Position numbers and translations under genes: made by a program. Shown here in pieces: positions 19,338 through 25,496 of a stretch of DNA of 64,000 bases. The stretch is from NCBI GenBank assembly GCA_024635755.1, contig JAGXIF010000007.1, forward strand, positions 62,001 to 126,000. Reading direction: 5' to 3'. The notes beneath the pieces were generated by a model that ran no database searches, had not been told where the DNA came from, and saw only the letters and a program-made list of their open reading frames with translations. How positions within the stretch are numbered: position 1 is the first letter of the stretch; each line of letters opens with the position of its first letter. Origin of the DNA: Halothiobacillus sp. GTDB taxonomy: Bacteria > Pseudomonadota > Gammaproteobacteria > Halothiobacillales > Halothiobacillaceae.

Positions 19338-21752
19338 TTAAGGCTCCCTCGCGTCCGGATCCGGCAGATCCTCTTCCGCAGCCAGCACGGTCTCGTGCAT
19401 CGTCAACAGGCTGTCGGGGTTCAGCGACAGGCTGGAAATACCCTGCTCAACCAACCAGCGGGTGATCTCGGGAAAATCCGACGGCGCCTGTCCGCAGATG
19501 CCGACGTACTTGCCCCGTCGACGGCAGGCCTCGATGGCCATCGCCATGATCTTGAGCACGGCAGGGTTGCGTTCGTCCAGCCCTTCGATCACCGACGAAT
19601 CACGGTCGACCCCCAGGGTCAGCTGGGTAAGATCGTTCGAGCCGATGGAAAACCCGTCGACATGTTCGAGGAATTCGTCGGCCAACAGGGCATTGGCCGG
19701 GATTTCGCACATCAGGTAGATCCGCAGCTCGTTCTCGCCCCGGGTCAGGCCATTTTCCGCCATGAGGGCCAGCACCCGGTCGACCTCCTCCACGCTACGC
19801 ACGAAGGGCAGCATCACCTGGGCATTGGTCAGCCCCATGACCTCGCGCACCCGGCGCAGGGCCTCGCATTCGAGGGCAAAGCTCGCGGCAAACGATTCAG
19901 CGTAATAACGCGAGGCCCCGCGAAACCCCAGCATGGGGTTTTCCTCGTGGGGCTCGAAGCCCTCGCCGCCGATCATCGAAGCATACTCGTTCGACTTGAA
20001 GTCGGACATGCGCACGATCACCGGGCGGGGGTGGAAGGCCGCGGCAATGGTGGCCACGCCCTCGGCCAGTCGCTGAATATAGAACTCGCGCCGGTCGTCG
20101 TAACCGGCGGTGTGTTGGTCGATCAGCGCCTGGGCTTCGGCATCGACCTGGTCGTATTCCAGCAGCGCCCGTGGGTGAATGCCGATGCGATTGTTGATGA
20201 TGAATTCGAGACGCGCCAGCCCCACGCCGGCGGCCGGCAGGAAGGACAGCCGGAATGCCTGTTCCGGATTGCCCAAGTTGATCATCAAGTCGGTCTGCGG
20301 CTTTTCCAGCGACTCGAGATTCAGCCGCTCGACGGTGAACGGCAGTTGCCCGCGGTAGACATGGCCGGCACTGCCATCGGCGCAGGAGGCGGTGACCTCC
20401 TCGCCATCGGGCACCCGCTCGGTGGCATCACCGCAGCCAACGATCGCCGGGATGCCCAGTTCGCGGGCGATGATGGCCGCATGGCAGGTGCGCCCGCCGC
20501 GGTTGGTGACGATCGCACCGGCGCGTTTCATGATCGGCTCCCAGTCGGGGTCAGTCATGTCGGTGATCAGGATCTCGCCGTCATCCAGGCGCCCCATGTC
20601 AGCCGAAGAGTCGATGATGCGGGCCCGGCCCGCGGCAATGCGCTCGCCGACACTCTTGCCCTCCACCAGCACCTCGCCCCGCTCCTCGAGCCGATAGGTG
20701 GCGTGCGTGGCCGCCTCTCGCTGGGAATGCACCGTCTCCGGGCGGGCCTGCAGGATGAACAGCTCGCCGGTCTCGCCGTCCTTGGCCCACTCGATATCCA
20801 TGGGGCGGTCTTCGCCCGCCTGCTCGCTGTAATGCTTCTCGATCTCGACGGCATATCGCGCCAGCGTGAGTACCTCGTCATCGCTGATGGCAAAACGGCA
20901 GCGCTCGTCTTCCGGGACATCCACGTTGCGCGTCGAGGCCCCATGGCGGGCGTCCTCGGTGTAGATCATGCGGATTGCCTTCTCGCCCAGTTGGCGCGAG
21001 ACGATCGGGCGAAAATTCCCCTTGAGCGTGGGCTTGTAGACGTAGAACTCGTCGGGATTGACCGCTCCCTGGACCACGTTTTCACCCAGCCCGTAGGCGG
21101 CGGTGATGAACACCGCGTCGCGAAAGCCCGATTCGGTGTCGATGGAAAAGATCACGCCCGAGGCGGCCAGGTCGGCACGCACCATGTTCTGCACGCCCGC
21201 CGACAGCGCCACGGCCATGTGGTCAAAGCCCTGGTGGACGCGATAGGAAATCGCCCGGTCGGTGAACAACGAGGCGAAGACATGCCGCACGCTGTCGAGC
21301 AACGCCTCCTCGCCGCTGATGTTGAGATAGCTCTCCTGCTGACCGGCAAACGAGGCGGTGGGCAGATCCTCCGCGGTGGCCGAGCTGCGCACGGCGACGT
21401 CGGGGTTCTCGCCATACTCCTCGCCCAGCTCACGGTAGGCCGCCACGATTTCCTCGGCCAGGTCATCGGGCATCTCGCCGCTGGAGATCCAATCGCGGAT
21501 CTGGTGCCCGGCTTTCTCCAGGGCAGCCACGTCATTCGTATCCAACGCGCCCAAGGTCTCGCGGATACGGTCGTCGAGGTCGTTGTGGCGGATGTAATGC
21601 CGGTAGGCATCCGCCGTGGTGGCAAAGCCACCCGGAACCTTGACGCCGCGATCGCCCAGCTTGGTCACCATCTCACCCAGTGAGGCGTTCTTGCCACCGA
21701 CGGTGGCGACATCATCCATCCCTAGTTCCGAAAACCGCCTGACAAAGCGCAT
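19338..21752 (-). CDS. ppsA: Phosphoenolpyruvate synthase
   Basis: Converts pyruvate, ATP and water to PEP, AMP and phosphate, for gluconeogenesis or carbon assimilation. The 804-residue form from MRFVRRFSEL (ATG 21752, AGGGAG upstream) shows the N-terminal ATP-binding domain (GGKNASLGEM; AVRSSATAEDLPTASFAGQQ), the swivelling domain with the phosphorylated His in GGRTCHAAIIARELG, and the PEP-binding barrel with SIGSNDLTQLTLG and the catalytic Cys of YVGICGQAPSD. The regulatory kinase gene ppsR is not adjacent. A longer frame to 21821 exists but lacks conservation. Confidence 0.97.
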   Translation of the reverse strand: MRFVRRFSELGMDDVATVGGKNASLGEMVTKLGDRGVKVPGGFATTADAYRHYIRHNDLDDRIRETLGALDTNDVAALEKAGHQIRDWISSGEMPDDLAEEIVAAYRELGEEYGENPDVAVRSSATAEDLPTASFAGQQESYLNISGEEALLDSVRHVFASLFTDRAISYRVHQGFDHMAVALSAGVQNMVRADLAASGVIFSIDTESGFRDAVFITAAYGLGENVVQGAVNPDEFYVYKPTLKGNFRPIVSRQLGEKAIRMIYTEDARHGASTRNVDVPEDERCRFAISDDEVLTLARYAVEIEKHYSEQAGEDRPMDIEWAKDGETGELFILQARPETVHSQREAATHATYRLEERGEVLVEGKSVGERIAAGRARIIDSSADMGRLDDGEILITDMTDPDWEPIMKRAGAIVTNRGGRTCHAAIIARELGIPAIVGCGDATERVPDGEEVTASCADGSAGHVYRGQLPFTVERLNLESLEKPQTDLMINLGNPEQAFRLSFLPAAGVGLARLEFIINNRIGIHPRALLEYDQVDAEAQALIDQHTAGYDDRREFYIQRLAEGVATIAAAFHPRPVIVRMSDFKSNEYASMIGGEGFEPHEENPMLGFRGASRYYAESFAASFALECEALRRVREVMGLTNAQVMLPFVRSVEEVDRVLALMAENGLTRGENELRIYLMCEIPANALLADEFLEHVDGFSIGSNDLTQLTLGVDRDSSVIEGLDERNPAVLKIMAMAIEACRRRGKYVGICGQAPSDFPEITRWLVEQGISSLSLNPDSLLTMHETVLAAEEDLPDPDAREP

Positions 21753-21871
21753 CGCTGGACTCTCCCTAATTGCTGCAAAACCGCTACTCGCTTGCCCGAG
21801 CTTAGCACCCCACTTGGCCACCGGTGGCTATGATCACTGCACGGCAATCTCACCGGGCCCGCCGGGCCGGC

Positions 21872-21899
21872 ATAACATTCGTCACGGCGAATGTATAAT
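21872..21899 (+). promoter_or_regulatory. Promoter with SqrR/BigR-like operator in front of the MBL gene
   Basis: A perfect -10 TATAAT (21894-21899) lies 16 bp after ATAACA (21872-21877). The spacer contains a perfect inverted repeat ACATTCG-N6-CGAATGT (21875-21894), whose core is ATTC-N8-GAAT (21877-21892), the pattern described for the persulfide-sensing ArsR-family repressors SqrR/BigR. The repeat touches both promoter elements, as a repressor site would. The regulator gene is not in this window. Confidence 0.6.
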
Positions 21900-21929
21900 G
21901 TTCGACAAACATCCCAACGGAGGGTCAAC

Positions 21930-22874
21930 ATGCGTTTACTCAACACCATGAGCGGTCTGGCCGCCGCCCTGCTTGCCCCCCTGGCAATGGCAGGTGCGGG
22001 TGACGATACCTATGAGCCCAAGGCCCAGCAGGTCAACGACAACGTCTATGCCATCATCGGTCCCACCGATGCGCGTACCTACAAGAACCACGGCATGAAC
22101 GCCAACTACGGCGTCATTACAACCGACGAGGGCGTGATCCTGATCGACGCCGGCCCCGGCGCATTCAGCGGCCCCTACATCGAACGCGCCGTGGCCGAGG
22201 TCAGCGACGAGCCTGTTCGCTGGGTGGTCAACATCGGGGTGCAGGATCATCGCTGGTTGGGCAACGACTACTTCAAGCGGCAGGGGGCGGAAATCATCGC
22301 CTTCGAGCAGACGGTCGCATCGCAGAAGGCATTCGCCGATCGGCACATGAGCGGCCGACTGCCCGACGCCCTGGGTGATCGCTTCGAGGGCACCGAGCCG
22401 GCCTATGCCGCTCAACAGCTGGAGGGCGAAACCGCGGCGATCACGCTGGGTGGCACCGCCATCGAGCTGTCATTGACCAATGCCCACTTCCCGGGCGACG
22501 CCATGGCCTACCTGCCCGAACAGGACGTGGTCTTTACCGGCGACCTGGTGTACGTGGACCGTATGCTGGGCATCCATCCCTGGTCGAATCCGCAAAACGG
22601 TCTAGAGGCATTCAAGCGGCTCGAGGGGATCGATCCGGAGTATGTCGTTCCGGGCCATGGCCGGGTCAGCGACATGGAGCGCGCGCGACGCGACACGGGT
22701 GACTACTACGACTTCCTAGTGAACACCATCGGCCAGGCGGCACGCAACTTCGAGCCCATGAGCGATGTATTGAGCGCCCATGAGGACATGGAACAATTCA
22801 AGCACCTCGAGCACTACGACAGCTGGCACGGCACCAACATGAACCGCACCTTCGTTCTGTTCGAAGGCATGTAA
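21930..22874 (+). CDS. Secreted metallo-beta-lactamase-fold protein with degenerate metal site
   Basis: 314 residues from the ATG at 21930 (GGAGGG 5 bp upstream). Residues 1-21 form a signal peptide (hydrophobic core then AMAGAG), so the protein is periplasmic. MBL motifs are recognisable: LIDAGPG (72-77), AHFPGD (185-190), FTGDLVY with Asp205, and VPGHG with His243. The metal-binding HxHxDH loop instead reads I102-G-V104-Q-D106-H107, so two of the usual zinc-1 histidines are missing. Overall it resembles SoxH/quinoprotein-relay type MBL proteins of sulfur bacteria; the substrate is unknown. A sulfide-type operator in its promoter supports a sulfur-related role. It is followed by a strong terminator. 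Confidence 0.85.
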   Translation: MRLLNTMSGLAAALLAPLAMAGAGDDTYEPKAQQVNDNVYAIIGPTDARTYKNHGMNANYGVITTDEGVILIDAGPGAFSGPYIERAVAEVSDEPVRWVVNIGVQDHRWLGNDYFKRQGAEIIAFEQTVASQKAFADRHMSGRLPDALGDRFEGTEPAYAAQQLEGETAAITLGGTAIELSLTNAHFPGDAMAYLPEQDVVFTGDLVYVDRMLGIHPWSNPQNGLEAFKRLEGIDPEYVVPGHGRVSDMERARRDTGDYYDFLVNTIGQAARNFEPMSDVLSAHEDMEQFKHLEHYDSWHGTNMNRTFVLFEGM

Positions 22875-25188: not shown

Positions 25189-25496
25189 TCGCTCCTCCAG
25201 AAACAGAACAGAAAGCCGGGGTATCCCGAAAACGAAGCGGAGTATGGACCAGTTGGACAATCAGGAAATCGAATAATGCCAGACCATTGCTTTGACATGA
25301 TCGGAGCATGACCGGATCCCCACGCCCCGCAAAGCCACGGTCGATCTAATGATCGGTGCGCGAGACGCCGGTTCCAACCGCCGACGCTTATGGCCCGATC
25401 ACAAGGTTTTGGGCCCGAAAACACGGCGGGAGCGGGCCTTTGCCCTTACCATGAAGCACCCCTCATCCTGCCCAGCCGGAGCACGCCCCAGACCTA
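25189..25496. other. Divergent intergenic region between yqjG and the YeeE gene
   Basis: 308 bp with no supported gene; it must hold both promoters. A GC-rich hairpin GGCCCG (25412-25417) / CGGGCC (25433-25438) followed by TTTGCCCTT precedes the YeeE gene on the + strand and could be a weak terminator or leader structure. A lone consensus TTGACA at 25292-25297 on the + strand has no matching -10. No ATTC-N8-GAAT element was found here. Confidence 0.55.

Follow-up and report, generated by a model that had tools for sequence, protein, structure and literature searches.

The promoter of a metallo-beta-lactamase (MBL)-fold protein gene located in the window, as we call the whole stretch of 64,000 nucleotides analyzed here, contains a perfect inverted repeat that is, judging from its conservation, very probably an operator of the ArsR/SmtB family. 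We favor, with moderate confidence, the reading in which an arsenite-type (CVC) ArsR would repress the MBL gene through this dyad and be released by trivalent arsenic. Arsenic appears to be a likelier signal than sulfide because the wider relatives of the protein are mostly encoded in arsenic clusters, where a site of this type accompanies the genes of arsenic-sensing repressors. Since arsenite-type arsR genes have the same dyad upstream, the motif ATTC-N8-GAAT alone is not sufficient to identify a persulfide operator; the analysis also points to an MBL-fold protein that recurs in arsenic clusters and has a non-canonical metal site.

An inverted repeat within the promoter of the MBL gene

The MBL gene (21930..22874, forward strand) encodes a protein of 314 aa with a putative signal peptide and the sequence GxQxHR instead of HxHxDH. 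It is preceded by a Shine-Dalgarno-like GGAGGG read from the window letters (21919..21924, forward strand) and its divergent neighbor is a phosphoenolpyruvate synthase-like gene (ppsA, 19338..21752, reverse strand), assigned by its Pfam domains and with its start codon taken from the letters. Scanning of the interval 21720-22000 returned one sigma-70-like promoter, ATAACA-N16-TATAAT, with 10/12 matches versus a shuffle mean of 0.1; on the forward strand, its -10 element TATAAT (21894..21899) is perfect and its -35-like hexamer ATAACA (21872..21877) matches at 4/6 positions. The gap between the two hexamers is occupied by the dyad ACATTCG-N6-CGAATGT (21875..21894, forward strand), which was recognized in the window letters, by an inverted-repeat scan and through orthologue conservation, and whose last base is the first base of the -10 element. 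The sequence-only reading had described a TATAAT promoter holding a perfect 7-bp inverted repeat with the core ATTC-N8-GAAT, and this is what we find at the same place: the arms ACATTCG and CGAATGT flank a 6-nt spacer, and the core, spanning 21877-21892, has its single occurrence within the 64-kb window there according to a motif scan. Further upstream, at ~21800-21815, the sequence GAGCTTAGCACC is identical across six orthologous ppsA/MBL intergenic regions and may represent a promoter or leader element of ppsA.

By itself, in one window or one genome, ATTC-N8-GAAT is not beyond chance, because at least one copy is present in 39/100 shuffles of the window and the count in the whole assembly (13 sites versus ~17 expected by scaling the window shuffles) is close to the shuffle rate. 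Perfect 7-bp inverted repeats with a 6-nt spacer number 13 in the window, compared to 6.05 on average over 20 shuffles; two of the 13 lie at most 100 bp upstream of one of the 51 genes called in the window. The surroundings of ten of the 13 assembly sites were inspected: seven sites are inside called genes and two, the MBL site included, have a gene start no more than 200 bp downstream of them, according to a crude gene caller that is unreliable for starts and for some of its long antisense calls. This caller also missed the ArsR genes in L102 and L103, which were recovered separately. The genome scan suggested along with the sequence-only reading thus does return sites, at about chance level, and the identification of a sulfide regulon by motif count was abandoned on account of this number and of the seven sites lying inside genes. 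Exact copies of ATTCG-N6-CGAAT found elsewhere in the genus include the recurring sequence ATTCGAACCTGCGAAT, which looks by eye like a tRNA T-arm and was rejected as an operator copy.

Conservation was followed in a family sample of 27 genomes, 11 of which belong to the genus of the window; the window genome itself (G000) is 87.9% complete. A copy of the MBL gene with at least 77% identity is present in 6/11 genus genomes, the window's own included, and three of the five genomes that have none are 64-85% complete. In five of the six copies, again counting that of the window, the dyad stands directly before the -10 element, the motif ATTC-N8-GAAT being exact in three of them and carrying one mismatch in two. 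Invariant columns amount to 11/14 in the arms versus 0/6 in the spacer, with a Fisher p = 0.002 that is indicative only, because the species compared are related. The sixth genome, G003, has kept the MBL gene and the CVC ArsR and has lost the dyad. A different inverted repeat, GTCGGGC-N11-GCCCGAC, surrounds the -10 element upstream of its MBL gene (L092). Degenerate dyads occupy the same position in some g3 and g4 homologues (L015, L018). Because 5/6 genus copies keep the dyad in place, with arms conserved over the spacer, the earlier suggestion of an ArsR-family operator at this promoter appears very probable.

Arsenic-resistance clusters and the dyad upstream of arsR

A scan of named genomes yielded 185 relatives of the MBL protein, and the loci of the best 80 were used to examine gene neighborhoods. 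Counting ArsR, ArsC, ACR3, ArsP, ArsJ and ArsE-like thioredoxin as arsenic markers, 53 of these 80 loci (best 80 of 185) contain at least one, in all 53 cases within 1.5 kb of the match; the ArsC matches lie under the NCBIfam cut-offs, and the count without ArsC is still 53/80. ACR3 or ArsJ is present in 41 of the best 80 loci of 185, and 27 of these 80 have no arsenic marker. None of the markers was found in 49 control loci, which are mostly 3-4 kb long, come all from the window's own family and exclude L099 with the C42 arsR gene described below. In genus g4, the MBL gene and an ArsJ-associated GAPDH gene are transcribed divergently, arsJ following the latter in three of the loci read, and the ArsJ, ArsJ-associated GAPDH and ACR3 proteins of the g4 clusters all score above curated cut-offs. 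Four matches are carried by plasmids, three of which were examined. On two of them the order is arsR-permease-thioredoxin-MBL-OsmC, and in one case a gene with the annotation arsenate reductase (azurin) large subunit lies nearby; on the third, the Pannonibacter plasmid (H4), no ArsR is found beside the MBL homologue. On two alphaproteobacterial plasmids a CVC ArsR gene precedes the homologue, and upstream of this ArsR gene are sites resembling ATATGCG-N6-CGCATAT, which differ from the ATTC-N8-GAAT core at two positions. Guyparkeria also has paralogue operons (L087, L088 and L089) in which a CVC arsR gene is followed by an MBL paralogue, L089 adding an ArsP permease and an ArsE-like thioredoxin. 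These three operons carry a different dyad, CATATGCA...TGCATATG, and for this reason their ArsR was dropped as a binder of the window dyad.

The accessible portions of three papers place no MBL gene in an ars operon (PMC6429310, PMC8147356, PMC7760498), one review lists, in its accessible portion, an MBL-fold hydrolase among the arsenic-stress proteins of another organism, and no description or assigned role of an MBL gene in arsenic clusters was found in the open-licence literature searched.

The regions upstream of arsR were compared in 19 MBL-bearing clusters outside Guyparkeria, namely 18 of the 20 regions that the 80 MBL loci (best 80 of 185) supplied, together with L098, the Guyparkeria paralogues L209 and L210 being dropped. 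ATTC-N8-GAAT with at most one mismatch is present in 15/19 of them, versus 2.44 on average and 8 at most over 300 shuffles; one of the fifteen, L160, is counted solely through a site 154 nt upstream. When restricted to the last 112 nt, the count is 14/19 (shuffle mean 1.63, maximum 5), and within the same 112 nt it becomes 9/14 after removal of the loci labeled Halothiobacillaceae or Halothiobacillus and of those of g4. Adding the three Guyparkeria paralogue operons with their other dyad gives 15/22. An earlier count, in which the stretch ended at the start of the protein match and all ArsR types and duplicates were retained, had given 12/36; the 15/19 count used 30 bp more downstream. Among the individual sites, that of Parasulfuritortus (L190) reads ATATTCG-N6-CGAATAT. 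In one comparison of MBL upstream regions L204 was excluded, as this locus starts inside the gene.

A matrix was built from 16 of the arsR-upstream sites (15 distinct) and ranked position 21875 first in the 64-kb window, with a score of 16.2 versus 13.2 for the next position; in an arms-only version the respective scores were 19.7 and 11.5. Orthologous sites came first in the 20-kb loci of 4/5 relatives, the exception being G003, and with the arms-only matrix they took the first four places among 315,170 positions scored in 21 genus loci. Because the training sites were chosen by the ATTC-N8-GAAT pattern, these scores test shared arms and flanks and not independence.

The claim that ATTC-N8-GAAT points to a persulfide sensor is not supported by this comparison, the same dyad being found upstream of CVC-type arsR genes in MBL-bearing arsenic clusters. 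According to the portion of PMC7994332 available, the footprint of the arsenite-responsive ArsR1 of P. putida comprises ATATTCG half-sites over the -10 element of Pars1. Nor is the dyad a general arsenic signature, because, in the accessible parts of the respective papers, the alignment-derived SmtB/ArsR consensus takes the form of a 12-2-12 repeat whose core is different (PMC6555750) and the ars sites of E. coli and C. violaceum are not conserved (PMC5116461). A further site, ATTCG-N15-CGAAT, is bound by RexT according to the available text of PMC8960804.

Candidate regulators and their signals

A PF01022 search of G000, 87.9% complete, returned four proteins, all of which could in principle bind the dyad: an SqrR/BigR/YgaV-like protein (C24), a CVC ArsR (C42) and two ArsR-rhodanese fusions (C2, C22). 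The C42 ArsR, with the motif CVCEL, exceeds the PRK10141 ArsR cut-off (109.7 versus 97). Its recognition region is identical to those of four cluster-type CVC ArsRs at 15-16/23 positions, compared to 10-12/23 for the SqrR-like protein, and the ArsR-rhodanese proteins share 9-11/23 with the compared ArsRs; at the level of sequence, this favors the CVC ArsR as the binder. The C42 arsR gene is solitary: arsenic genes were not observed next to it and the dyad was not found in its own upstream region, so that autoregulation through the same dyad was rejected. Neither ACR3 above its cut-off nor ArsB was detected in any of the 11 genus genomes, of which G000 is 87.9% complete. The solitary ArsR of G009 (L107, 2986-3330) reads CVGEL and not CVCEL, and no MBL orthologue was found in G009.

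The binding regulator and the inducer that we infer would act in the following way. The MBL gene, akin to genes of arsenic clusters and in Guyparkeria standing alone beside ppsA, would carry an arsenic-cluster-type operator between its -35 and -10 elements. The solitary C42 ArsR, encoded elsewhere in the genome, would bind this dyad in trans and thereby block RNA polymerase. Binding of As(III) or Sb(III) by the CVC cysteines would then release ArsR, and this release would allow the secreted MBL protein to be made.

Alternatively, the dyad could be bound by the SqrR/BigR/YgaV-like protein (C24), whose cysteines would be linked by sulfane sulfur upon release, making the MBL gene sulfide-induced; we regard this as unlikely. 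Both sensor cysteines of the C24 protein align with those of BigR, YgaV and SqrR (PDB 6o8l group), and the protein is present in 27/27 family genomes searched. The ArsR protein with two persulfide-sensing cysteines expected by the sequence-only reading is thus encoded, and the absence of an SqrR/BigR homologue cannot be held against sulfide. ATTC-N8-GAAT, which overlaps the MBL promoter, is moreover the deduced RcSqrR site and resembles a sequence in the YgaV footprint on ygaVP, whereas the YgaV site at katG has no such motif (PMC9774250, in the portion available). A similar site is also found at a gene for a DsrE-like secreted protein in two relatives, G001 (L131) and G002 (L127): AAATTCG-N6-CGGATAT, at ~1501-1520 of these loci and upstream of the gene, scores like the MBL sites with the matrix and fits a sulfur regulator as well. 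The same sequence occurs in G005 (L129), where no DsrE gene is called after it.

Several observations nevertheless argue against the C24 protein. Its score is under the BigR equivalog cut-off (76.9 versus 155), and the exact motif is absent upstream of the SqrR-like gene at all 27 family loci (0/27), which led us to reject autoregulation through an exact dyad; one-mismatch sites are present at 5/27, three of these among the 11 genus genomes. In 14 loci of the sulfide-dehydrogenase family (~12 genes from 6 genomes, with ~1.5 kb flanks and with the upstream region of G000 fcc cut by a contig end), no arms score exceeds 12.4, versus 19.6-23.1 at the MBL sites. Genus g2 has equally kept the SqrR-like regulator, and in 10/10 of its genomes there is no MBL match at E <= 1e-20. 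Finally, the neighbors of the MBL homologues are mostly arsenic genes, as counted above (53/80, best 80 of 185). The yeeE gene lies 2.6 kb away and has no exact site upstream, in agreement with the earlier description; a one-mismatch site, AATC-N8-GAAT, is located at 25259-25274 between a GST-like gene and yeeE. As this site is seen in the window and is gone in five relatives, yeeE was rejected as a co-regulated gene. The proposal that the MBL gene belongs to a sulfide-induced regulon therefore retains the encoded SqrR-like regulator and the DsrE-like site in two relatives, and finds no support in the sulfide-dehydrogenase loci (0/14), in the regions upstream of the SqrR-like genes (0/27, exact motif) or at yeeE, where no conserved site is seen. 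We hold the arsenite reading with no more than moderate confidence, and still leave some weight to persulfide, because the C42 arsR gene lacks the dyad, neither ACR3 above its cut-off nor ArsB was found in the 11 genus genomes, the DsrE-like gene has its site and G003 has lost the dyad.

Less likely still is another binder of the ArsR family, either an ArsR-rhodanese protein next to YeeE (C2, C22) or a regulator whose gene the assembly lacks. The assembly is 87.9% complete and two of its four PF01022 proteins are ArsR-rhodanese fusions beside YeeE, but the recognition regions of the fusions match worse (9-11/23) and near-complete genomes that keep the dyad have the same CVC and SqrR-like proteins. 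The two fusion genes (L007 and L008, on C2 and C22 of G000) are near-identical and each directly follows a YeeE-type transporter gene. That the inverted repeat is a product of chance or a by-product of the promoter sequence, with no regulator attached, is very improbable: motif counts in the window and assembly close to random expectation and the loss of the dyad in G003 speak for it, but the arms were kept while the spacer diverged across five genomes.

The MBL-fold protein and comparison with known systems

The MBL fold of the protein is indicated by a domain match and by a structure model with a pLDDT of 92.6, for which Foldseek returned 8d2z and 6uxu as the nearest solved structures. A signal peptide is probable; the model gives residues 1-24 low confidence. 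The HxHxDH motif of dinuclear zinc MBL hydrolases is absent from the window protein and from 30 aligned homologues; GxQxHR replaces it in 30/30 of these, the ungapped correspondence being our own reading of the alignments. All matches to named NCBIfam models are below cut-off. The best of them, TIGR04558 and TIGR04559, describe SoxH-related PQQ metallohydrolases and score 144.8 and 109.6 bits, far under their cut-offs of 300 and 280. As to the origin of the gene and the role of its product, we infer, tentatively and as a rather doubtful possibility, that the secreted MBL protein with its altered metal site is a widespread accessory of arsenic clusters in many sulfur-oxidizing genera, acting on thiolated or organic arsenicals in the extracytoplasmic space, and that in Guyparkeria its gene left the cluster and stayed under a trans-acting arsenite repressor. 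If this were true, arsenic and sulfur detoxification would meet in one enzyme, an extracytoplasmic MBL-fold accessory.

The system can be compared with three others. Clusters composed of arsR, an ArsP_1 permease, an ArsE-like thioredoxin and MBL (for example L089, plasmid NZ_CP054604) encode a homologous MBL protein, with ~39-49% identity, near a CVC ArsR gene, whereas the MBL gene of the window stands alone beside ppsA and its presumed repressor is unlinked. The operators of SqrR, BigR and YgaV, as far as described in the available part of PMC9774250, share with the window ATTC-N8-GAAT over promoter elements, and a homologous regulator is encoded here; the homologues of the MBL protein are in contrast mostly found in arsenic clusters, the sulfide-dehydrogenase loci are without the site and the regulator is under the BigR cut-off. 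P. putida ArsR1 at Pars1 resembles the present case by its ATATTCG half-sites and by a site overlapping the -10 element. The differences, again from the accessible portion of PMC7994332, are that the Pars1 site precedes the ars operon itself and that its half-sites are arranged otherwise, whereas here ATTCG-N6-CGAAT precedes an MBL gene and, if the arsenite reading is right, would be bound in trans.
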